From Clostridiaceae bacterium (GTDB taxonomy: Bacteria > Bacillota > Clostridia > Saccharofermentanales > DTU023), in NCBI GenBank assembly GCA_012518795.1, contig JAAYRL010000006.1:128346-192345 (forward strand): DNA of 64,000 bases. Reading direction: 5' to 3'. Under the pieces are notes generated by a model. It was not told where the DNA came from, ran no database searches, and saw only the letters and a program-made list of their open reading frames with translations. Made by a program: the position numbers and the translations under genes. Below, piece by piece: positions 5,934-51,286 of the stretch. Numbering within the stretch: position 1 is the first letter of the stretch; the number at the start of each line of letters is the position of its first letter.

Positions 5934-6407
5934 TCAATCAAAATTTATCGTTCTGGCTACTTTTGCTACATCTTTCAGTTCAAAATCTATTGTTTCACCA
6001 TTTGTTTCATCTATTATTGTTAAAGATTGATCAGTACCTGTTACTAATTCTCCGGTAAATATTTTTTTATTATCTCTTTTTTGATACAGTTTTACTTCAA
6101 CATTTTGTCCTGCATATAAATCAAATTCTTTAGCTGTGGTCAACGGTCTTTCTAAACCTGGTGAAGAAACTTCAAAATAATCGTGATTGCGTAATTGCAA
6201 TTCTTGTTCAATAATCGGATCTACCGTTTCACTGATCAACTCACATTCATCAATATTTATACCACCACGTTTGTCAACTAATAAACGTAAAAATAATTTA
6301 CCGTTTTCTCTCACATAAATTACATCGATCAATTCAAAACCTAAATTCTGAATAATCGGTTCTAAAACATCAAATATTTGTTGACAACGTGCATCTCTTC
6401 TTGCCAT
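5934..6407 (-). CDS. rimP: Ribosome maturation factor RimP
   Basis: RimP (YlxS, DUF150) is needed for 30S maturation. The 157 residues have typical length and motifs: an N-terminal alpha/beta domain with LGFELIDVIYVRENG and LRLLVDKRGGINIDECELIS, then DYFEVSSPGLERPL, followed by the C-terminal SH3-like domain. AGGAGAG lies 2 nt before the ATG. It is the first gene of the operon. Its leader of about 160 nt contains a hairpin with a U-rich tail at 6515-6546. Confidence 0.95.
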   Translation of the reverse strand: MARRDARCQQIFDVLEPIIQNLGFELIDVIYVRENGKLFLRLLVDKRGGINIDECELISETVDPIIEQELQLRNHDYFEVSSPGLERPLTTAKEFDLYAGQNVEVKLYQKRDNKKIFTGELVTGTDQSLTIIDETNGETIDFELKDVAKVARTINFD

Positions 6408-6514: not shown

Positions 6515-6546
6515 TTAAAAACAAAGAGTGGGCAAGCCCACTCTTT
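6515..6546 (-). terminator. Hairpin with U-rich tail in the rimP-nusA leader (candidate attenuator)
   Basis: A perfect 10-bp stem (6523-6532 with 6537-6546) has a 4-nt loop. On the minus strand it is followed by an interrupted T tract, TTTGTTTTT. It lies about 20 nt after the expected transcription start and about 115 nt before rimP. No gene upstream on this strand needs terminating, since the neighbour at 6767 is divergent. The likely role is leader termination. Established in Bacillus subtilis: NusA autoregulates its operon by termination in the leader. Whether that happens here is inference. Confidence 0.65.
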
Positions 6547-6766: not shown

Positions 6767-7180
6767 ATGATTGAAGCCATTGTTGGATCTAAAGGTACAG
6801 GAAAAACATCTATTATAGTGGACGAGATTACAAATGTTGCTAATACGCAAGATACAAATGTAGTTTGTATCGAATATGGTAAGCGGTTTAATCAAAATAT
6901 TCCTTATCAGGTACGTTTGATTGATATTACTGAATATCCGGTTAGAAATTATCGTGAATTGCTGACTTTTATCGCAGGTGTCAGTGCTAAAGACCACGAT
7001 ATCACACATTTTTACATTGATAGTCTATATAAAATAGCTCACTCTGAAGATATAATTGAGTTAGAAAAGTTTTTTAATGATTTAACTGATATGACCAATA
7101 ACATGGCAGCAAAATTTATTATTACTATTAGCGATGATCCTGATGCAATGCCCGACAATGTGAAAAAAGTAATGCGCTAA
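6767..7180 (+). CDS. Small P-loop NTPase-like protein of unknown function
   Basis: 137 residues that begin with a Walker A motif, VGSKGTGKT, right after the first strand. A hydrophobic strand ending in Asp (THFYIDSLYK) is a possible Walker B, and another strand, AKFIITISDDP, lies near the C terminus. Small proteins like this occur in Clostridia and are often loosely named PilT-like, but nothing here indicates motility. AAGGAG lies 8 nt before the ATG. It stands alone on the plus strand, divergent from rimP, and has its own terminator downstream. Confidence 0.75.
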   Translation: MIEAIVGSKGTGKTSIIVDEITNVANTQDTNVVCIEYGKRFNQNIPYQVRLIDITEYPVRNYRELLTFIAGVSAKDHDITHFYIDSLYKIAHSEDIIELEKFFNDLTDMTNNMAAKFIITISDDPDAMPDNVKKVMR

Positions 7181-31733: not shown

Positions 31734-32537
31734 ATGAGGAATTCAGATATAAATATAAAAGAGCGCAGAGCAAACTTGGTAAAAATCTTGCAAGATGAAC
31801 CTAATACTTCAATCAGTAGTCTATCTGAACAACTAACCGTTTCAGAATCCACAATTCGGCGTGATTTAAAATTTTTAGATAGTAAAAAAAAGATATACAC
31901 ATCTTATAAATTAACTGATACCGGAATTCAAAAAGATATTCTTCCCGAATTTGATAGTGATATTTTTTATAATACTAATATTGAAGAAAAAGAGGCCATC
32001 GCCAAACAAGCTGCAAAAATGATCAAAACCGGTGATGTAGTTTTCATCAATTCCAGTTCTACCGCTCTGCGGGTAATCAAGTATGTTGATCAAGATTTTG
32101 TCACAATTATCACAAATAATGCCCGTTGTTTGTTAGAACCGGTCAATTCAAAAGTAAAACTGATTTTGATCGGTGGCGAAATTGTACATAATTCTGTTTA
32201 TAAAAACTCTAAAATGTGTACTACCGGCGATTATGCCGTTTCTCTGATCCATAATATTTTGGCAAATAAGTGCATTATCGGCATTAGTGGCATTACCGAA
32301 GAAAAAGGGCTTTCAACCGCAGTAATCAGCGAGCTCACTGTAAACCGCGAGATGATAAACAGTTGTTTGGGTCATGTCATAGTAGTTGCAGATAATAGAA
32401 AAATCGGCATCAATCACAATTATATTTTTTCACCAATCGAAAATGTCAGTTGTTTAATTACTGATAAAAATTCTGATCCGGAATATTTAAATCAGATTAG
32501 CAATAAAGGAATCGAAATTATTATTGCTGATACCTAA
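31734..32537 (+). CDS. DeoR-family transcriptional regulator (probable UlaR)
   Basis: The N-terminal HTH is INIKERRANLVKILQDE...SISSLSEQLTVSESTIRRDLKFLD, the DeoR signature. The C-terminal DeoRC sensor domain binds a sugar phosphate (DVVFINSSSTALRVIKYV, IGGEIVHNSVY, GISGITEEKGLSTAVISE). 267 residues. GAGGAGAGGAG lies just before the ATG. Divergent from the ula genes, so by position it should be their local regulator, probably responding to ascorbate-6-P as UlaR does. Confidence 0.87.
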   Translation: MRNSDINIKERRANLVKILQDEPNTSISSLSEQLTVSESTIRRDLKFLDSKKKIYTSYKLTDTGIQKDILPEFDSDIFYNTNIEEKEAIAKQAAKMIKTGDVVFINSSSTALRVIKYVDQDFVTIITNNARCLLEPVNSKVKLILIGGEIVHNSVYKNSKMCTTGDYAVSLIHNILANKCIIGISGITEEKGLSTAVISELTVNREMINSCLGHVIVVADNRKIGINHNYIFSPIENVSCLITDKNSDPEYLNQISNKGIEIIIADT

Positions 32538-39224: not shown

Positions 39225-40064
39225 TTAGAATTTTCCACCGGAACCGCCATGGGTTGAGCCGGAAGATGAGGTGCGAGTTCTTGAACCACCGCTACCGCCA
39301 CCGGAAGAACTTTGTTTCGGTTTAACTCTTCGGGAAACATGACTGTAGAGATAGAGATCACGTTGATCTGTCAACACAAAACTGTTCGCTTCCACATAAT
39401 CATCTGCGCCGACCCGTCTGCGCACGGATTTAAGCTTAGCTTTCATACTGCCGACAACGACAAATGCAACAATTAAACCGACTCCGATAGCAGCAGGTAT
39501 CCAATACCAAGCTAATGGTTTTTTCGGCAAATTACCATAATCATAGGGTTCACCTTTAGCAGCTTGTTTTAAATACTGATCACATAGATCAGCAAATTTA
39601 TTGAAACCTTTAGCATATTTAGCATCACTTATGTATGAGAGAAATTGTTCTGTCATATGTGCTCTACCGGCATCGGTAAAAGCCTGAATCCCGGAACCGT
39701 GGGTAGTAATAAACCAATCCCTAAATTCCATACTGATCAAAAACAATATTCCATCACGATTCGGTCCAATACCATAACCGTTGTAATCGAAAAAATCATC
39801 GGCAAATTCTGCAGGGCTTTTCCCTTCCAGAGAATAAACCGTCACTATTGCCACATCAGTTTGATATCGCTCACTAATTGAGTTCAGCTTTTCAAGTAAT
39901 TCTTGTTCTTCGGAATTATTTAACAAGTCTGCATTATCTACTAATCTTGGCAATAATCGATGATCCGGGATTGTCTGAGCCGATATTTTCGTTGGAATTA
40001 ATAAAACTGCAAAAACCACGCTGATAAACAGAATTATTATATTAAGATATTTCTTTCGCTTCAT
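39225..40064 (-). CDS. TPM-domain membrane protein (YdjH/YgcG-like)
   Basis: Signal peptide or first TM (LNIIILFISVVFAVLLIPTKISAQ), then a TPM domain (residues about 36-155; LVDNADLLNNSEEQELLEKLNSISERYQTDVAIVTV... GNRDGILFLI-like core). A second TM (WIPAAIGVGLIVAFVVVG) and a cytoplasmic Gly/Ser-rich end GGSGGKF, typical of this family, follow. GGAGA supports the ATG at 40064. It is the third gene of a zinc-ribbon/SPFH/TPM set like Bacillus YdjGHI. Confidence 0.82.
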   Translation of the reverse strand: MKRKKYLNIIILFISVVFAVLLIPTKISAQTIPDHRLLPRLVDNADLLNNSEEQELLEKLNSISERYQTDVAIVTVYSLEGKSPAEFADDFFDYNGYGIGPNRDGILFLISMEFRDWFITTHGSGIQAFTDAGRAHMTEQFLSYISDAKYAKGFNKFADLCDQYLKQAAKGEPYDYGNLPKKPLAWYWIPAAIGVGLIVAFVVVGSMKAKLKSVRRRVGADDYVEANSFVLTDQRDLYLYSHVSRRVKPKQSSSGGGSGGSRTRTSSSGSTHGGSGGKF

Positions 40065-40091
40065 GATTGTCTCCATTTCTCAACGTATTTC

Positions 40092-41177
40092 TCAACGCAA
40101 AAACAACCAAGCTGCTGCATAGGCAAGTGCTGCAACAATTAAGGCTATCAGACCGAACCATTTCCAGTAAGCTTTTTTATCCAGAGGAAGATCACCAATA
40201 AAACGACCGGTTTGACCGTTCATGGCAAAGGTAAATTGCTCACCTCCCCAAGAAGTATTTAAAACCCAGACCGGATACAAAACATAATTTGCTTTACCAT
40301 CGGATAATTGAATATTACCATTTTCCTGAACAACTGTTGCATAGCCCCTCACGGTTGATCTGAATTGATTTTCCGTACTTTGGCGCACACGATGATTGGC
40401 CCGTTCAATACATTGATCTGCCGGAACATCATAACGATCAGCTAAATAACCTGCCAAAAAACCGGCATGAAAGTTAGTTAATTCAGCCACATTATAAGGT
40501 TCAATCGATTCCATTAAATCGTCCGCCATTTGTGAAGATGCATCAACCGGAACACTGCTAAAGTCTATATTCCCGCTACGCAAAATCGAATAATAGCTGG
40601 TTTTTGTATAAATATAATTGCTATCACTCCAAGTGCTGGTTTGCGTCGCTCTATATCTAAATTTAGCATCAGCTTTGGTATCGAAAAGCCAAAACGGTAC
40701 ATACATACCACGAATTTTATCAATATGATTTTCATCTTTAAATTGTTTTGGCAATAACCGTTTGCCTTTTATATGATTGCGCAAACCCTGTTTTGCCTGT
40801 TCTTTGGTCAGTTTAAAAGGAATAATATAGTCAGGCCGCAGGTCGCCGGATATATTACCGGCAATCACCACAGGGTTATCACAATAAGGACAACTGGTTG
40901 CAGCAGTTGTAAAGTCACCTACAATCTGGCCGCCACAGGACTGACAAACATAGGCCGCAAAATTATTAAGTTCGTCTTCCTGCCAATTGCTATCTGCTTG
41001 CACATCCCAAGTAAAATCATCTTTTACCGATTCACTTCGTAAAGCTTCTTCATGTTGCATAACAGCATCCATTTCAAACTCCGTATCACAATAAGGACAC
41101 TTCATTCTTTGGGCTTGGCTGTCAAAATTTATTGCTCCACCGCAAGAAGGACACTTAAATTCTAATAATTGAGCCAT
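40092..41177 (-). CDS. Zinc-ribbon membrane protein (YdjG-like)
   Basis: Two zinc ribbons: residues 8-30 (FKCPSCGGAINFD...MKCPYCDTEFE) and about 74-100 (VCQSCGGQIV...SCPYCDNPVV). A central domain of about 200 residues begins DYIIPFKLTKEQAKQGLRNHIKGK. A C-terminal TM (FGLIALIVAALAYAAAWLFL) follows. 361 residues. Placed between the SPFH and TPM genes, as ydjG is with ydjI and ydjH in Bacillus. Confidence 0.8.
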   Translation of the reverse strand: MAQLLEFKCPSCGGAINFDSQAQRMKCPYCDTEFEMDAVMQHEEALRSESVKDDFTWDVQADSNWQEDELNNFAAYVCQSCGGQIVGDFTTAATSCPYCDNPVVIAGNISGDLRPDYIIPFKLTKEQAKQGLRNHIKGKRLLPKQFKDENHIDKIRGMYVPFWLFDTKADAKFRYRATQTSTWSDSNYIYTKTSYYSILRSGNIDFSSVPVDASSQMADDLMESIEPYNVAELTNFHAGFLAGYLADRYDVPADQCIERANHRVRQSTENQFRSTVRGYATVVQENGNIQLSDGKANYVLYPVWVLNTSWGGEQFTFAMNGQTGRFIGDLPLDKKAYWKWFGLIALIVAALAYAAAWLFLR

Positions 41178-41209
41178 AGTCTACCTCTTATCATCTTATC
41201 GTCAATTTC

Positions 41210-42538
41210 TTATTGGATATCTTTTTCATCAAAAGGATCGCCGCATTCAGGACAAAACTTGGGTGGATTATGCGGATCTTTCGGTTCAAAGCCGCATTTA
41301 TCACATTTGTAAAGAGGTGCCCCCTCAGGTTTGGGTTTTCCGCAATTGTGACAGAATTTACCTTGATTGACTGTTCCACATGTACATTGCCATCCTTGTG
41401 CCGGCTTCGGTTGACCACATTCCGTACAGAATTTACCGGTTGCTATATTGCCACATTTCGGGCAAGTCCATGAATCAACTGAAGGTTGACCGCCGGTCGC
41501 TTGTTGAGCAGCTTGAGCATTTTGTTGGTTTTGCTGCCCCATTGCGAACAGATCTTTTGCTTGAACACCGCCTGCTTGTTGAGCCATACCGAATCCCATA
41601 AAACCGGTCATTGCCCCGGCTTCATTAGCTGCAGCAGCTCTCATTGCATCTGCTTGCGCGCCGACTAAAGTTGCGCCGGCCATTGAAGGATCGCGCATCA
41701 TACCGGCTCTTTGTGCTTGTTTAATCAACTCTGCATCTTCTTCCGGCAATGTGATCGGATTAAGGGCAATTGAAACAATTTTCAAGCCGCGCAATTCTGA
41801 CCATTTTTTAGTCAATTCTTCATTCATTAAATCTGCAAGTTTTCCTGCATGGCCGGGCAATTCATTAGGTCTTACCTGCATCGTTGAAATTTCCGCAAAA
41901 GCTGGTTGCAACGCACTGACAAATTCCGTTTTCAATTGACTGTCAATTTGATCTCTGGTGTACTCTAACTGAACATTACCTGTAACATTGGTATAGAATA
42001 GAATTGGATCGGAAATTTCATAGGAGTAAATTCCGGAACATCTAACTGCAACATCAATATCTAGACCGATATTGCGATCTACAACACGAAACGGAATCGG
42101 ATTCGGAGTACCGAATTTATTGTCCAAGATCTCTTTCGTATTGAAATAATAAACTCTTTGATCTTTACCGGTGTCACCGCCGAAAGTAAAACGCCTGCCT
42201 ATTGTTTTAAAAGTATCAAGCAGGCTCTGACCAAATTTTCCGGAAAAAACACTGGGTTCAGAAGAAGTATCATATGTGTATTCACCCGGTTCTGCACAAA
42301 TATCGACTACTTCACCTTGATCAACAATAATCATGCATTGACCATCGGCAACCACTATACCTGAACCATTCGTAATTATATTATCACTGCCTTTGGTATT
42401 GGATGAACGACCACCAATTACTTTTTCACCTTTTCTAACTAAAACATCATTTGCTAAAGATTCACAATAAAAAAACTCTTTCCATTGATCAGCTAAGGTA
42501 CCCCCAATGGCACCTGCAATTGCTTTTATTAAACCCAT
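41210..42538 (-). CDS. SPFH-domain protein with C-terminal zinc ribbons (YdjI-like)
   Basis: The N terminus MGLIKAIAGAIGGTLADQWKEFFYC and residues about 30-290 form the virion-core/SPFH type domain of YdjI. An Ala/Gln-rich linker (QQNQQNAQAAQQA) follows, then three CxxC zinc knuckles: WTCPKCGNIATGKFCTECG, WQCTCGTVNQGKFCHNCG and YKCDKCGF...KFCPECG. In Bacillus the homologue works with PspA at stressed membranes. No pspA is visible here. First gene of the three-gene set. Confidence 0.82.
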   Translation of the reverse strand: MGLIKAIAGAIGGTLADQWKEFFYCESLANDVLVRKGEKVIGGRSSNTKGSDNIITNGSGIVVADGQCMIIVDQGEVVDICAEPGEYTYDTSSEPSVFSGKFGQSLLDTFKTIGRRFTFGGDTGKDQRVYYFNTKEILDNKFGTPNPIPFRVVDRNIGLDIDVAVRCSGIYSYEISDPILFYTNVTGNVQLEYTRDQIDSQLKTEFVSALQPAFAEISTMQVRPNELPGHAGKLADLMNEELTKKWSELRGLKIVSIALNPITLPEEDAELIKQAQRAGMMRDPSMAGATLVGAQADAMRAAAANEAGAMTGFMGFGMAQQAGGVQAKDLFAMGQQNQQNAQAAQQATGGQPSVDSWTCPKCGNIATGKFCTECGQPKPAQGWQCTCGTVNQGKFCHNCGKPKPEGAPLYKCDKCGFEPKDPHNPPKFCPECGDPFDEKDIQ

Positions 42539-42631
42539 ATGTCTCTCCTATTCGTGTGTATTAAAAATATTATAAATAAAAATATTAAGTCAGTTGAATA
42601 AAACTGAAAAATATAAGATTAAGCAACTTTT

Positions 42632-42664
42632 ATACATATTTATGATATTATCATAAATATGTAT
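42632..42664. promoter_or_regulatory. Perfect 33-bp palindrome between the ydjI-like and MBOAT genes
   Basis: Two perfect 16-bp arms (first arm ATACATATTTATGATA) surround a single central T. It lies about 95 nt from the ydjI-like start and 70 nt from the MBOAT start, in a divergent spacer. It has no T-tract. A shared operator is the likely role. Confidence 0.55.
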
Positions 42665-42733
42665 TGAACACTGTAAAAGTTATTAATTTTATTTTTTTTT
42701 GGACATTTTTTACACCTATTGAGGCACGAATTT

Positions 42734-44155
42734 ATGGTTTTTTCCAGTTTGTTTTTTTTGTATGCGTTTTTACCGTTATGTTTAATGGTTTATCAAATAC
42801 CAAGAACCTTAAAATTTAAAAATCTTGTCTTATTAGCTTTCTCTCTTTTCTTTTATGCCTGGGGTGAACCGTTCTGGATTATTCAGATGTTGATATCCGG
42901 AATTTGGGTTTTCCTATCAGGCTTATTTTTAGACCGTTATAAGCATGATCCCGCAATGCACAAAACTATTTTAGTCATTGGTACAGTCGGAGCTTTATTG
43001 CCTCTATTCATCTTCAAGTATGCCGGGTTTTTCATTGAAATAATTAATGTGCTTCCTTTGATCAATATTCCTCTCCCCGGTTGGACAATGCCGATCGGAA
43101 TATCCTTTTATACCTTCCAAATTTTAAGTTATCTGATTGATCTTTACCGAGGTCAATGTCAAGTCCAAAAATTTTTGCCGGACTTTTTACTTTATCAGAC
43201 TTTATTCCCCCAATTGATCGCCGGCCCGATTGTTCGTTACAGTGATATAGAGGAACAATTGAGAGAGCGCAGAATTACAATCAGAGGTTTGGCAGATGGC
43301 ACCAAAAGATTTGTTATAGGTCTGGCGAAAAAAACTCTGATTGCCAACTATGCCGGAACTTTAGTTGCCCAAACTATAGGCAGTGGAAATCTGAATATAC
43401 TTTCCGGTCTTGAATGTTTAATCGGAATAATTGCAGTCACTATTCAAATTTATTTTGATTTTTCCGGATATTCAGATATGGCAATCGGTTTGGGTCATAT
43501 GTTCGGCTTTAAATTCAAAGAAAATTTCGAGTATCCCTATTATTCAAAATCAGTTACTGAATTCTGGCGGAGATGGCACATTTCTCTCGGTACTTTCTTC
43601 CGTGACTATGTTTATATTCCTTTAGGCGGCAATAGACATCATAGATTACGTAATGCCTTTATTGTCTGGTTTTTAACCGGCTTTTGGCATGGTGCAGGTT
43701 GGAATTATATTTTTTGGGGTTTGTATTATTTTGCAGTTCTTCAAATTGAAAAATATTTAACCTTGAAGTATACGGAAAAAATTCCGCGTGTCATCATGTG
43801 GATACCGATGAGCATCGTATCAATGCTGGGTTTTGCGATTTTTTACTTTAACGCAATTCCCGATCTCGGAATATTTCTCAGTAGATTATTTACTTTCGCC
43901 GGCAATGATTTCGTCAATCTGAAAGGCAAATTATTATTTAATCAAAATTTGATATTCTTTATTTTCTCTTGGATTTTATCAATGCCAATTATACCGGAAA
44001 TCAGAAAACGCTTACCCGGTTTGCGAAGTTATAGATTCAGAGCAACGAAATTTTATGTTATCGGATCAACCGTTTCAATTTTATTATTGTTATTAATCAG
44101 CACCGCATCTTTGGTTGGTGACAGTTTTAATCCCTTCCTTTATTTCAGGTTTTAG
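42734..44155 (+). CDS. MBOAT-family membrane O-acyltransferase (AlgI/DltB-like)
   Basis: A polytopic protein that moves acyl groups across the membrane to an extracellular polymer. The family signature FWRRWHISLGTFFRDYVYIPLGGNRH and the catalytic His region GFWHGAGWNYIFWG are intact. About 11 hydrophobic segments. The ATG at 42734 follows GAGG by 9 nt; a TTG five codons upstream contains the SD itself. The next gene is a DHHW protein, the usual partner for O-acetylation of a surface polysaccharide. Confidence 0.92.
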   Translation: MVFSSLFFLYAFLPLCLMVYQIPRTLKFKNLVLLAFSLFFYAWGEPFWIIQMLISGIWVFLSGLFLDRYKHDPAMHKTILVIGTVGALLPLFIFKYAGFFIEIINVLPLINIPLPGWTMPIGISFYTFQILSYLIDLYRGQCQVQKFLPDFLLYQTLFPQLIAGPIVRYSDIEEQLRERRITIRGLADGTKRFVIGLAKKTLIANYAGTLVAQTIGSGNLNILSGLECLIGIIAVTIQIYFDFSGYSDMAIGLGHMFGFKFKENFEYPYYSKSVTEFWRRWHISLGTFFRDYVYIPLGGNRHHRLRNAFIVWFLTGFWHGAGWNYIFWGLYYFAVLQIEKYLTLKYTEKIPRVIMWIPMSIVSMLGFAIFYFNAIPDLGIFLSRLFTFAGNDFVNLKGKLLFNQNLIFFIFSWILSMPIIPEIRKRLPGLRSYRFRATKFYVIGSTVSILLLLLISTASLVGDSFNPFLYFRF

Positions 44156-44280: not shown

Positions 44281-45846
44281 ATGGAAATAAATAATATAAA
44301 TTTAAGTCATAAGCATTCCCAAGTCTTGGACAGAGAGAAAGAAATTCAAAAGGCGAAAACAGAAGCCGATAAATATAGTTTAAATCGTAAGAATTCCGGA
44401 ATTTCTCTAAATGAAGAAAATCCACGGAGAAACAAACCTAATCCATATAAGCCTCAAGCTATTAAACATGACGCGATTGTTTTTATTAGTTTTTTCATTT
44501 TCCTCGTTGTTTTCGGACTGCTTTTTCTGGTCTGGAAAAAACAGGACATTTCTGAAATGGAAAAAAGGACTTTACAACAAAAACCTAAATTAACCTCAGA
44601 AAGATTATTCAGCGGAGAATACGGCAAAGAATTTGAAGCATATTATGCAGACCAATTTCCCATGCGGAATCAATTTATGGAACTCTATAAATCACTGGTT
44701 AACTTGATGAATTCTTTCCCCGGCGGAAAGCAAAGAATTCATTTGGTTACAGGTTCAAAAAATCAACTAAATGATACATTTGAAGTAAATGATCCTCAAG
44801 TCAAAAACCGGAATGCACAAAATCAGACTGATTCAGATCCTAAATCTATTACAGAGCCCGAAATTGCACAAAAAGAAAACCATAATGAAGACGGCCATAA
44901 TCTTGAAAAGATTGTTGAAGAAAAAAATCAAGAAAAAGCGCAAAACCGAGAACTACAATATAATGATGCAAGCAATATAATCGTTGACGGCAAAGCAATG
45001 GAAATATTCGGATATTTTCCGGAAAATGCTGTTGCTTATGCAAATAGGATAAATTACTTGCGCGAAGTTTTACCCGATCAAATCAGATTGATTCATCTGG
45101 TTGCACCGCCGGCAATTGCGTTTAACGGTTTGGAAGAATTGGAAGCAGAAAGCGAGATTGTCTATCAGGCAATTGATCAAATATATCAAGCAGAAAACGA
45201 TTCTATTATTAAAGTTGATGCTATCTCAAATATTGCGAAACATGCTGACGAATATATTTATTTCAATACAGATCATCACTGGACGGGTCGTGGTGCATAT
45301 TATGCATATCAGGCTTTTTGTTTTTATACCGGACAAACTGCAACCGCCTTGGAAGATATGGAACTGACTAAGCCCGACTATAATTTTCTCGGGTCTTTAT
45401 ATAGTTTCACCGGCAATAGTCCTCTACTCGAAAATTCTAAAGATCAAGCTGAAATCTTTCTGCCCAAATATTCAGGTACCAATACAGTATATAGGGATAC
45501 AAGTATGTCTGACGGAGTTCCGACAATGCTCTTGGATTCGGAAAGTAAAATTGATTCACATTATATTCTTTATTCCGGTGACGATGTCGCTTTGGGTTTA
45601 ATCAAAAGCGACATCAATAACGGAAAATCTATTCTGGTCATCAAGGATTCTTTTGCGAATGCATTTTTGCCTTTTTTAATGGATAATTACGAAAATATAT
45701 ATTCAATAGATCCAAGATATATGACTGATCCAATTCTGCCTTTTATCAATGAAAAGAAAATCAATGATGTATTGGTTCTCAATTCAGCTTTCATTACCGG
45801 AAATGCGGACTGGCTTGGCGGCTTTGATAATATCATCGGTTACTAG
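44281..45846 (+). CDS. DHHW-family (AlgX/AlgJ-like SGNH) protein, partner of the MBOAT enzyme
   Basis: A cytoplasmic N terminus of about 60 residues, one TM (AIVFISFFIFLVVFGLLFLVW), then an extracellular domain. FNTDHHWTGRGAYYAY is the DHHW catalytic signature, and VIKDSFANAFLPFL carries the family Ser. A Gln/Asn/Lys-rich insertion of about 70 residues (residues about 165-235) is unusual. AAGGTG lies before the ATG. With the MBOAT it probably forms an O-acetylation pair. Confidence 0.87.
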   Translation: MEINNINLSHKHSQVLDREKEIQKAKTEADKYSLNRKNSGISLNEENPRRNKPNPYKPQAIKHDAIVFISFFIFLVVFGLLFLVWKKQDISEMEKRTLQQKPKLTSERLFSGEYGKEFEAYYADQFPMRNQFMELYKSLVNLMNSFPGGKQRIHLVTGSKNQLNDTFEVNDPQVKNRNAQNQTDSDPKSITEPEIAQKENHNEDGHNLEKIVEEKNQEKAQNRELQYNDASNIIVDGKAMEIFGYFPENAVAYANRINYLREVLPDQIRLIHLVAPPAIAFNGLEELEAESEIVYQAIDQIYQAENDSIIKVDAISNIAKHADEYIYFNTDHHWTGRGAYYAYQAFCFYTGQTATALEDMELTKPDYNFLGSLYSFTGNSPLLENSKDQAEIFLPKYSGTNTVYRDTSMSDGVPTMLLDSESKIDSHYILYSGDDVALGLIKSDINNGKSILVIKDSFANAFLPFLMDNYENIYSIDPRYMTDPILPFINEKKINDVLVLNSAFITGNADWLGGFDNIIGY

Positions 45847-45983: not shown

Positions 45984-46835
45984 TCAAACTAAAGCCGTAC
46001 CGCATCCCGGGCAAAAACGCGATGTTTCAGGCATCGCCGAAAGATCCGTGCCGCAATTATGGCAAAATTTCGGACGACCGGCCGGTGTTGCCGCAGGTGA
46101 TCCTACCGGTACTTCACTATTAGCTCCTACAGGTGTCCCGACTACTACCCCGGCTGCGGGAGAGGTTTGCACTGTCGGACTATCAACAGGCGATGAAGAA
46201 TGACCTTGTCGGACATTTGATTGATCAAATAAATATCCTCTGGTGGTCATATATTCTCTAATCTCTTCACCTTGTCTCTCATATTCTTTATAGGACCTGT
46301 CATAGCGTTTTTCCGGACGAATGGTAGATAATTCAAAGCGAATTTTATCAAACCAAGGTGATTGAATGCCAATCTCAATCCAAAAAGCATATTTATATTC
46401 ATAACGACGAGGTTCATAACTCACTCGTTTGCCTTCATTATTTTCACGATAAATTTCTTTTTTATCTTCATCAATTTTCAGATTGCAATAGGTAACTTGA
46501 TCTAAACTGATTATATCCGGATTGTATTCTTGCCACTTTTTCCTGCTAGTTACAATAAAATTACGACTCGTTTCGTCAACCATAATTTGAGTATTATTAC
46601 CAAATATTCTGGTAGGTGTAAAATTATTTAATTGCTGCTCATTCTCTTCTCGATACTGTAATTGTTCTTTTATTTCAGCCAGAGTAGATTTTCTTCGTTC
46701 ACTAAAAAAAGGAGACAGTTTCTTTGCACATTTACTGCAAATGTTGCCATCTTCTAATTTTCGATTACCTAACAACTTGATTTTTTCACCGCAGATATCA
46801 CAATTTTTGCTTTTAAATAAACTTTTCAGACCCAT
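45984..46835 (-). CDS. DUF4428 zinc-binding protein with C-terminal zinc ribbon
   Basis: 283 residues. The N-terminal DUF4428 has two CxxC pairs (NCDICGEKIKLLGNRKLEDG, ICSKCAKKL). A central domain of about 130 residues (DETSRNFIVTSRKKW ... WIEIGIQSPWFDKIRFEL) and a Pro/Val/Gly linker follow. The final zinc ribbon is FCHNCGTDLSAMPETSRFCPGCG. AAGGGG lies 6 nt before the ATG at 46835. Last gene of the kinase cluster, separated by a 269-nt gap, so co-regulation is not certain. Confidence 0.75.
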   Translation of the reverse strand: MGLKSLFKSKNCDICGEKIKLLGNRKLEDGNICSKCAKKLSPFFSERRKSTLAEIKEQLQYREENEQQLNNFTPTRIFGNNTQIMVDETSRNFIVTSRKKWQEYNPDIISLDQVTYCNLKIDEDKKEIYRENNEGKRVSYEPRRYEYKYAFWIEIGIQSPWFDKIRFELSTIRPEKRYDRSYKEYERQGEEIREYMTTRGYLFDQSNVRQGHSSSPVDSPTVQTSPAAGVVVGTPVGANSEVPVGSPAATPAGRPKFCHNCGTDLSAMPETSRFCPGCGTALV

Positions 46836-46928
46836 AACAATCCCCTTATCATAGTGTTTGATACAAAAACATTCTTTATAAGATTTCTGTTGATGCAACA
46901 TTGCACGCTTTTCAGCGCGAGAATAGTA

Positions 46929-46962
46929 TTAAACAATTTACTTTTATAATTAAATTGTTTAA
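46929..46962. repeat. AT-rich inverted repeat after the repeat-protein gene
   Basis: TTAAACAATTT and AAATTGTTTAA form perfect 11-bp arms around 12 nt. It lies downstream of the gene ending at 47105 and upstream of the DUF4428 gene. A hairpin or operator is possible. Confidence 0.45.
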
Positions 46963-48597: not shown

Positions 48598-51183
48598 TTA
48601 GATAACTTTGTTATCATTTTCGATATTATTACTAAGAATTGCTTCTCTTTTGATAATGAAATAATTTTTTCCCTGCCGCGCCCATGTCCGATTGTTCTTA
48701 AAGCTTTTTGCTTCATCATATTTGGGAGGCACTATCAGATTTCCGTATTGGTCAGCATAACCCCATTTTTGGGTAGACAGATCTTTGACTGCAATTAAGC
48801 CACAGGAGAATCCGCTCAATGACTCCAATTGGCTGAAAACAAGAGACTTTTTGCCGTCTTTTGCTTCGATCTCCCACAAATCATCGATGAGACGTCTGCA
48901 GCTTTTGTGTGGAAAAGATCCGCCTTCAGTCGTAAAACGATTACCTAATCTTTCAAGAGCTTCCCTTGCTTTAATTTCGTCGGTACTATTTGAAATTTCA
49001 GCCATTTTTTGTGTTTCCTCAAGAGGTGGAATCGGGGGGCCGGTTATATCTTTTCCGGTTTTATCTATCCAACGTCCATCTTTCAAAAGTCGTCCGTCAC
49101 GTGATAGTCTCGTCCAAGCTTTGTCATTTAAAAAAGGAGAAAATAAATCGTTTATATCATATGTAAACAAATATGTCTTAGCTTCTCCAACACCATATTT
49201 GAATGCATCTCTGGCCGGAATTTTTTCTGCGTTCGAAACAACAAAGATACTTTTCCAATTTTTATCCATATATCCGAATTCAACATGATTATCCGAATAG
49301 TACCTTGCGTATGCTCGAAGTCCCTCACTTTCCGTGCCGATAAGAGCAATCCCTTGTGGAATGATTTCATTACCTTGCAGGTCGATGATTCCAAAGGACA
49401 ACAGAGATTTAACATAACGCTTGTTATCCCTCGTATACTGATAAAAAATCATAGTTCCGTGCTTCAATAAATTTGCATCTATTTGCTCCAAATTATGATA
49501 TTTACAAGGCATAATAATACGATCACCAACTCCTACTAAACCGAAATGATCTAAATTCATTTTAGGATACGGAGTTTCAGAAAATACAAAAGCATCAAAA
49601 GCACTATCCCTGAGCCAGCTCCACTTTGCTTCCAGTGCGACACTCCCCTTGGTGTCAATCGCTCCCCATTTTTTTCCCTGTTTGAACACAGCATACCCAT
49701 TAGAAAATCCGCGGATCTCATCAATATTTGTAAGCGTGAAGGCAATAGTACCATCTGCTGAATAGCCAAACACCTCATCTCCTTTTTTAGCAATGGCAAT
49801 CCCATCTGAAAAGGGGTGAACAATGTCAAATTCTTCATTACTTATCACACTGCCATCAATTTTTACGATTGCATACTTCTTCTTATTAGAAACTGCCAAC
49901 ATATCTGAGCCAAGATTAACCAGTTTCTTACAACTTAGAATCAGATTACCGGTCATGCTGTAGAGGGTAAATCCGTTGCTTTCAAGCAAAATAGCTTTTT
50001 CATTCAATATTTCATATTTTATAAATCCGAACATTGCTTGAGAGTGTTTTTGCGTAACAGGTAAAACTATCATGCCATTAGTATCAATTACACCATATCT
50101 CGTTCCAATTATTTTGCCGTTTGTTACCACAAAATAATTAGCATCAAGAAACTGAAAGGGCATCGTTCCTTCAGGGAAAGGTATTTCCTGAATATTTCCA
50201 TACTCCACAGTCAACATGTTGGAAATATCATTTTTTTGATTATCAGAATCTATGATTGGATCTGTTACCTTACCGGATTTCTTAAGTCCTTCCCATACGC
50301 TTTTTGACCAGGAAAATCTATCGTCTTGAATTTGAATACCGGAGGCGGTAAAGATTCCGTCCAAAACAAGCGGTTCATGTCCCAAACCCTCCACAACTGA
50401 AAATGGCATGGCATCAGAAACAGCCATATATGCAGCTGAAGCAGAGAGTTCCTGACAGATCATATCTAATTGACCATTATCAAGCATTGTTATTCCTATA
50501 ACATTTACATTTTCTCTACCGGCGAGCGTTTCGGCGGAATCTCCCATCCGCAAAATTGCACCTACCAATAATTTAGAAGAGACGGAAGTAAATAATATGC
50601 GATAACTGTCGGCTCCGTAACTGCCGGATAATTTTTCAATATCAAATCTTATAAATAATGTTCTCTGTATACCTTGCGAACTTGTATTTATAGTATCGTG
50701 TTCACGGCCAGAAATAAAATCTTCCATACCTTGTTGCACCAATCCTTTTAAAAGTGTAAATCCGATAAGCAAGCCGTTTTGCGGAAAAAATTCAAAAGAT
50801 GCTCTCGCCATTCCTTCTGCCAAAGCAGCTTGATTGTACTGGGGATAAGCTTGCATTACAGCTTTTTGCCAGCTTTCTTTTGCTGCATGACAAATATTAA
50901 AATATTTTGCTTGATCAACTATTTCACCGGTATTTCTATCACGAAATTCTAAATGTTGTGTATTCTGAATACCGAAATTCCGAATGACTGTAAAACGAGT
51001 ATCATAATTCCAATGATTGTTTTTATCGTCAATTGCTCCGGGATAATGCTTTTTGAAGATTTCCAAAATAAACGGTGCCAGGAAACGGTTTACATCTTCA
51101 GGGTTTTGTGAGATCGGACCCGGATACCTGCTATCTTCAAATAGAGTTATTCCCATTGATATAGTAAAAATTTCTTTGTTCAT
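48598..51183 (-). CDS. Large WG-repeat protein
   Basis: 861 residues, with no signal peptide or TM seen. Residues 1 to about 330 are of unknown type. Then seven or more WG (KWG) repeats: RYGVIDTNGMIVLP, KYAIVKIDGSVIS, VFGYSADGTIAFTL, KWGAIDTKGSVALE, FGLVGVGDRIIMPCKY, FGIIDLQGNEIIPQG and KWGYADQYGNLIVPPKY. WG repeats form beta-propeller-like surfaces for protein contacts. I choose ATG 51183 over an in-frame GTG that overlaps the SD AAGGAGG. A palindrome lies 80-100 nt upstream. Confidence 0.8.
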   Translation of the reverse strand: MNKEIFTISMGITLFEDSRYPGPISQNPEDVNRFLAPFILEIFKKHYPGAIDDKNNHWNYDTRFTVIRNFGIQNTQHLEFRDRNTGEIVDQAKYFNICHAAKESWQKAVMQAYPQYNQAALAEGMARASFEFFPQNGLLIGFTLLKGLVQQGMEDFISGREHDTINTSSQGIQRTLFIRFDIEKLSGSYGADSYRILFTSVSSKLLVGAILRMGDSAETLAGRENVNVIGITMLDNGQLDMICQELSASAAYMAVSDAMPFSVVEGLGHEPLVLDGIFTASGIQIQDDRFSWSKSVWEGLKKSGKVTDPIIDSDNQKNDISNMLTVEYGNIQEIPFPEGTMPFQFLDANYFVVTNGKIIGTRYGVIDTNGMIVLPVTQKHSQAMFGFIKYEILNEKAILLESNGFTLYSMTGNLILSCKKLVNLGSDMLAVSNKKKYAIVKIDGSVISNEEFDIVHPFSDGIAIAKKGDEVFGYSADGTIAFTLTNIDEIRGFSNGYAVFKQGKKWGAIDTKGSVALEAKWSWLRDSAFDAFVFSETPYPKMNLDHFGLVGVGDRIIMPCKYHNLEQIDANLLKHGTMIFYQYTRDNKRYVKSLLSFGIIDLQGNEIIPQGIALIGTESEGLRAYARYYSDNHVEFGYMDKNWKSIFVVSNAEKIPARDAFKYGVGEAKTYLFTYDINDLFSPFLNDKAWTRLSRDGRLLKDGRWIDKTGKDITGPPIPPLEETQKMAEISNSTDEIKAREALERLGNRFTTEGGSFPHKSCRRLIDDLWEIEAKDGKKSLVFSQLESLSGFSCGLIAVKDLSTQKWGYADQYGNLIVPPKYDEAKSFKNNRTWARQGKNYFIIKREAILSNNIENDNKVI

Positions 51184-51263
51184 AATTGAGATGCCTCCTT
51201 GATCCACTTATTTTTACATTGCGGATATTCTATATTTTTAGAATACCCTCATCCGGAACATCA

Positions 51264-51286
51264 ATTGTATGCTGAAAGCATACAAT
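51264..51286. promoter_or_regulatory. Palindrome upstream of the WG-repeat gene (cluster motif, copy 1)
   Basis: ATTGTATGC and GCATACAAT surround 5 nt. The same TTGTATGC-N5-GCATACAA occurs at 54942-54964. Both lie in leaders within the kinase cluster. Confidence 0.55.

Follow-up and report, generated by a model that had tools for sequence, protein, structure and literature searches.

A conserved 33-bp palindrome as a possible shared operator-promoter of divergent SPFH and MBOAT genes in a clostridial genus

Divergent promoters and the gene sets at the locus

Bidirectional promoters, described by Warman, Grainger and co-workers, are defined by opposite-strand starts lying 7-25 bp apart in passages of one report (PMC10268837), and are termed pseudo-symmetrical in passages of two (PMC12825309, PMC10268837; E. 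coli, Salmonella). According to parts of one of these studies, divergent starts in E. coli are mostly 18 bp apart, distances of 10 and 23 bp also being common, and the acrR/acrAB divergent promoter is both bidirectional and under the control of the repressor AcrR (PMC12825309). The locus reported here lies in a window of 64,000 nucleotides (the whole stretch of DNA analysed; 36.4% GC) from a Clostridiaceae genome. It shares with bidirectional promoters a pair of divergent genes, facing -10 hexamers, and starts predicted to be 10 bp apart, one of the distances named as common. In contrast to the commonest class, in which starts are separated by 18 bp, symmetry at this locus is perfect over 33 bp. 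The acrR/acrAB region is similar in combining a bidirectional promoter with a repressor, putative in our case. However, the repressor gene is part of the pair in acrR/acrAB, whereas here neither gene is regulator-like and no regulator gene is adjacent.

The envelope-stress genes pspA-ydjGHI of B. subtilis are transcribed from a SigW-type promoter, in an order in which the SPFH gene is not the first; YdjG has a zinc-ribbon and YdjH a TPM make-up. SPFH, zinc-ribbon and TPM genes are likewise grouped on the minus strand of the window (Table 1), where the labels YdjG-like and YdjH-like follow what we take to be the layout of the B. subtilis YdjI, YdjG and YdjH genes. Unlike in B. subtilis, the SPFH gene leads the operon, and no PspA match was found among the 28 window proteins scanned, although the YdjI/YdjG/YdjH-like genes (39225-42538) stand together. 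In B. subtilis, PspA is reported to be brought to the membrane by YdjI and YdjG/H (PMC8581546). Proteins were scanned against Pfam for 28 of the 55 window ORFs of at least 110 residues; at the chosen threshold, 8 of these gave no match. The MBOAT gene was taken to begin with the ATG at 42734, since MVFSS is common to homologues at this point; the ORF list gives an alternative start, TTG at 42719.

Table 1 Features of the palindrome region and of the flanking genes (window positions)
Feature	Position	Strand	Basis
Perfect palindrome, 16-bp arms and 1-nt centre	42632..42664	.	Sequence and chance tests
21-bp core ATTTATGATATTATCATAAAT	42638..42658	.	Identical in 4 of 5 congeners with the divergent gene pair
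Candidate -10 TATGAT for MBOAT; predicted start A 42653	42641..42646	+	Approximate matrix; rank 1 in source genome
Candidate -10 TATGAT for SPFH operon; predicted start A 42643	42650..42655	-	Consensus scan and approximate matrix
Overlapping alternative SPFH -10 GATAAT	42647-42652	-	Approximate matrix
Candidate -35 TTTACA for SPFH operon, 16-bp spacer	42672..42677	-	Consensus scan and approximate matrix
Weak candidate -35 TTAAGC for MBOAT, 16-bp spacer	42619..42624	+	Approximate matrix
Left outer inverted-repeat arm AACTTTTA	42625..42632	+	RNA fold
Right outer inverted-repeat arm TAAAAGTT, overlaps SPFH -35	42674..42681	+	RNA fold
SPFH/Band 7 protein (YdjI-like), 442 aa	41210..42538	-	PF13421, E 8.6e-22
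Zinc-ribbon-like pairs protein, YdjG-like by position only	40092..41177	-	Weak zinc-ribbon matches, all below curated cut-offs
TPM-domain protein, YdjH-like by position only	39225..40076	-	PF04536, E 3.9e-28
MBOAT O-acyltransferase, 473 aa from ATG 42734	42734..44155	+	PF03062, E 2.9e-24
DHHW/AlgX-like protein, probable MBOAT partner	44281..45846	+	PF14286, E 4.5e-43; PF16822 below cut-off

The palindrome and its conservation in the genus

The palindrome sits in the 195-bp spacer (20.5% GC) from which the SPFH/Band 7 gene (minus strand) and the MBOAT gene (plus strand) diverge, and reads ATACATATTTATGATA-T-TATCATAAATATGTAT at 42632-42664. The first-pass annotation had reported a perfect 33-bp palindrome with two 16-bp arms and a 1-nt centre in a divergent promoter region between a ydjI-like gene and an MBOAT gene; the sequence is correct to the base, with no mismatch, and the location and gene orientations are as described, the promoters being predicted. 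When loops of up to 10 are allowed, no other perfect palindrome in the window is as long, the runner-up having arms of 12 bp. It also ranks longest among the 9 perfect palindromes (arms of at least 11, loops 0-8) present in 451,634 bases sampled from the genome, i.e., the 64-kb window and 387,634 further bases, or approximately 24% of 1,871,149.

Arms of at least 16 (loop 0-10) were obtained in 0/300 first-order and 0/300 third-order Markov windows of 64 kb, and arms of at least 14 in 3/300 and 1/300, respectively. Among 20,000 simulated 195-bp stretches with the composition of the spacer, arms reached at least 16 in none and at least 14 in 3, in a test that is conservative because the model itself includes the palindrome. 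The palindrome is real, non-random and beyond chance, and its description as exceptional even in AT-rich DNA holds. The genomes are drafts and the spacer is AT-rich, features that would suit chance or an assembly artefact. However, arms of this length are missing from all 600 simulated windows and all 20,000 simulated spacers, and the core is identical in four separately held genomes, so that such an origin can hardly be credited. An intrinsic terminator is disfavoured, as the element has 4 G/C in 33, lies between two gene starts and is absent from the terminator scan.

Other inverted repeats were noted in the same genome. The second longest palindrome of the sample (L192:4506-4535; 30 bp, 14-bp perfect arms) lies between two plus-strand genes, and a perfect, operator-like 22-bp palindrome, GTGATATTATATATAATATCAC, lies between two minus-strand genes (L180:10983-11004). 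Within the window, an inverted repeat with perfect 12-bp arms and a 10-nt loop (46929-46962) holds TATAAT just upstream of a DUF4428 gene (45984-46901, minus strand). A second one, ATTGTATGCT-GAA-AGCATACAAT (51264-51286; arms of 10 bp), is found 56 bases upstream of a WG-repeat gene (48598-51207, minus strand). A third, GC-richer repeat with 11-bp arms (6523-6546) is located in the divergent spacer between 5934-6407 (minus strand) and 6767-7180 (plus strand).

The search within the genus covered seven genomes, from the source genome (G000) to G006. The divergent MBOAT/SPFH pair is found in five of them (G000, G001, G003, G004 and G005; in G001 a contig end falls inside the SPFH gene), and all five carry the palindrome element, whole or half. 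The element is absent in the two genomes that lack an MBOAT match: in G002 and G006 (92% and 87% complete), neither an MBOAT match nor the palindrome was found, and another gene lies upstream. Across G000, G001, G004 and G005, the core is invariant at all of its 21 columns and the flanks at 84 of 162; elsewhere in the alignment no invariant stretch exceeds 10 columns, a length reached at the SPFH ribosome-binding site. The palindrome is thus conserved, as judged by sequence comparison, in relatives that retain the gene pair, a point that the first-pass annotation had proposed to check. In G004 (L142), upstream of the MBOAT gene, ten extra alignment bases push the left flank of the palindrome outward by about one helical turn.

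Arms are symmetric at 16, 15, 14 and 14 of 16 positions in the four palindrome-bearing genomes, and their outer letters differ. The outer six arm positions, which changed between species, are symmetric in 19 of 24 cells, a value attained by 2 of 720 re-pairings of the arm columns, the true pairing counted; at arm positions 5 and 6, changes are seen on both sides. Symmetry is therefore kept despite letter change, although the test is modest because only four sequences are involved and two of them are close (G001 and G005 are alike at 143 of 162 flank columns).

In G003, the gene pair is present and the palindrome is not intact: the SPFH-side half is kept (ATTTATGATAATAT, minus strand) and the other half is altered, so that conservation of a symmetric site above its flanks is a feature of four genomes and not of this one. 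The G003 region may be aligned ungapped, which sets the MBOAT-side TATGAT opposite TATAAT, or with an 8-bp central insertion, which leaves a palindrome paired at 12 of 13 positions around a shifted centre. The latter, a different near-palindrome, is what might be expected if short-range template switching during replication renewed perfect arms with little selection on symmetry, and double-sided arm changes are obtainable by template switching according to part of a study on RNA genes (PMC8794818). Such homogenisation would make the arms alike, yet it does not alone hold 21 bases fixed while half of the flank columns vary, and the element tracks the gene pair. We consider it improbable.

Further sites, regulator genes and wider searches

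A genome-wide search for further sites, which the first-pass annotation had proposed, revealed no second close copy. Allowing up to 3 mismatches, the 33-bp pattern matched nothing in the source genome beyond the palindrome itself; across 59 genomes (source included), its matches were confined to the orthologous site and came from 3 genomes. At 0-1 mismatch, the core is present as a single copy in each of four genomes and in none of the other 184 of the 188 genomes of the order that were searched, 38 of which belong to the family. When as many as 3 mismatches were allowed, the 19-bp core gave 82 forward matches in the 7 genus genomes versus 50 for the reversed control, a modest excess, not zero, accounted for in part, among the matches listed, by the orthologous sites and by a ParA-like coding site common to four genomes. 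Absence of other sites and absence of conservation had been named together as counting against the palindrome being a regulatory site; the former holds as regards close sites, and the latter does not, conservation being clear.

Eleven loose core matches were read in context (10 chosen stretches), covering five of the ten other loose matches of the source genome. Nine of the eleven lie inside ORFs and two are intergenic, one in the source genome (contig C50) and one in G005 (contig C13). The loose match shared by four genomes falls within a ParA/Soj-like gene (named by eye), so its conservation is that of coding sequence. In the source genome, the sequence at L178:12866-12887 inside this gene is AATTGTTTCACGTGAAACAATT, which contains a parS-like site. 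Further genomic sites of the kind that a regulon or autoregulation would provide were not found in these searches, and no regulon was seen; a loose one, or a regulator with a single site, may be compatible with the data. No regulator gene adjoining the palindrome was found among the 28 window proteins scanned against Pfam, and the sole helix-turn-helix match among them is a DeoR-type gene (31734-32537) approximately 10 kb away.

Upstream regions were obtained for 108 of 110 SPFH loci, and a palindrome score of at least 12 was reached in 11 of them, versus 2 of 324 Markov-simulated regions. The element described here accounts for four of these 11 loci (L003 and L034 are identical upstream); the remaining seven are unlike it, and several are GC-rich and terminator-like. 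MBOAT loci were read in 17 of 30 cases. At the 12 loci from other genera, palindrome scores within 260 bp peaked at only 4-7; less upstream DNA was covered for L145, L146, L156 and L157 because the called start lies inside the gene. Four 13-15-letter core strings do not occur in the literature text searched. With shorter core strings, two 17-letter strings were absent among the matches listed, and no title there concerned these genes; the Helicobacter pylori repressor HspR is the subject of one paper among them. Nothing fitting on the gene pair, or on palindromic operators in divergent promoters, was found among the matches listed, and the word 'promoter' is absent from the text of one genomic study of bacterial inverted repeats.

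Promoter elements and the reading of the symmetry

Promoters were scored with an approximate SigA weight matrix. In the SPFH direction, the core outscores every other promoter candidate of the spacer in each of the four palindrome-bearing genomes; the best hexamer is TATGAT in the source genome, while the other three have GATAAT, shifted by three bases. In the MBOAT direction, the core ranks 1, 2, 2 and 3 against a general background and 1, 2, 2 and 2 against a local one. TATGAT occurs on both strands, 3 bp apart, in four of the five genomes with the gene pair, and the predicted starts, both A, are seven bases past TATGAT and 10 bp apart. The hexamers of the two strands in G003 are TATAAT and TATGAT, and among the promoter candidates of this genome the core drops to 9th and 12th place. 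A consensus scan of the minus strand gave TTTACA-16-TATGAT, a match that alone proves little because the scan returned 11 promoter-like sites in 2.5 kb versus 8.9 expected. The -35 boxes are weak and therefore leave room for a regulator or other factors. The outer inverted repeat flanks the palindrome unequally. By consensus scoring, the palindrome probably covers the promoters predicted for the two genes.

Each strand of 42610-42690 outdoes 200 of 200 shuffles in folding (z -4.9 and -4.8), which would suit an RNA hairpin that controls stability or translation from the leader of one transcript or of both. However, such folding is expected of any palindrome. A hairpin of this kind is very unlikely because the predicted transcripts hold one arm only and shuffled versions of their leaders fold at least as well (z 0.8 and 0.0). 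Rfam offers no fitting family: the two matches at E <= 1 are both to mir-287, at 17-18 bits versus a cut-off of 80.

We tentatively favour, at close to an even chance, an operator-promoter shared by the two divergent operons and bound by a putative dimeric repressor, found only in this genus as far as searched. One strand of the palindrome would bear the -10 element of the SPFH operon, and the opposite strand that of the MBOAT-DHHW genes; as the hexamers lie on opposite strands, the two predicted promoters are mirror images. RNA polymerase could then occupy the palindrome in just one direction at once. A putative dimeric DNA-binding protein would place one subunit on each half-site, the half-sites repeating at 10 bp, about one helical turn, and a dimer on the same symmetric sequence would shut off both directions together. 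We infer a repressor because the core is invariant and symmetry extends beyond the hexamers. Promoter use is predicted from consensus scoring; polymerase competition, the repressor and the signal to which it would respond are putative. Against this reading stand the lack of a second close site and of an adjacent regulator gene, the loss of the intact palindrome in G003, and the weakness of the -35 elements.

In the nearest alternative, the locus would be a symmetric bidirectional promoter that has no dedicated regulator: RNA polymerase alone reads both ways, and selection on the facing -10 elements explains the symmetry. We consider this possible but somewhat less likely. The core scores as a promoter, the TATGAT hexamers on both strands predict paired starts, and two facing hexamers three bases apart could account for much of the symmetry. 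The missing second site and adjacent regulator fit this view, as does the ungapped G003 alignment, in which symmetry is lost and the -10 element is retained. However, 21 invariant bases and symmetric outer arms exceed the needs of two -10 hexamers. TATGAT to TATAAT-type exchanges are usually tolerated in -10 elements, yet none is seen in the four genomes, and in G003 the core is no longer top-ranked.

The palindrome is a real, conserved and ordinary cis-element, of a kind already known, and within the genomes searched it is limited to a few species. A dimeric regulator acting on it, as the first-pass annotation proposed, is plausible from the sequence, while the idea that envelope stress and polymer acetylation are controlled together is guesswork based on the names of the genes. 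That the shared operator-promoter answers to a single-site dimeric regulator encoded elsewhere, forming a two-way switch that couples the YdjI-type membrane-surveillance operon to MBOAT/DHHW surface-polymer O-acylation, is rather unlikely. The strict symmetry makes this compact two-way promoter apt for separating the share of symmetry due to RNA polymerase from that due to a regulator. Without regulator binding, the element would represent ordinary gene regulation; if a regulator binds, it would point towards shared regulation of the membrane-surveillance and surface-acylation genes of this lineage.
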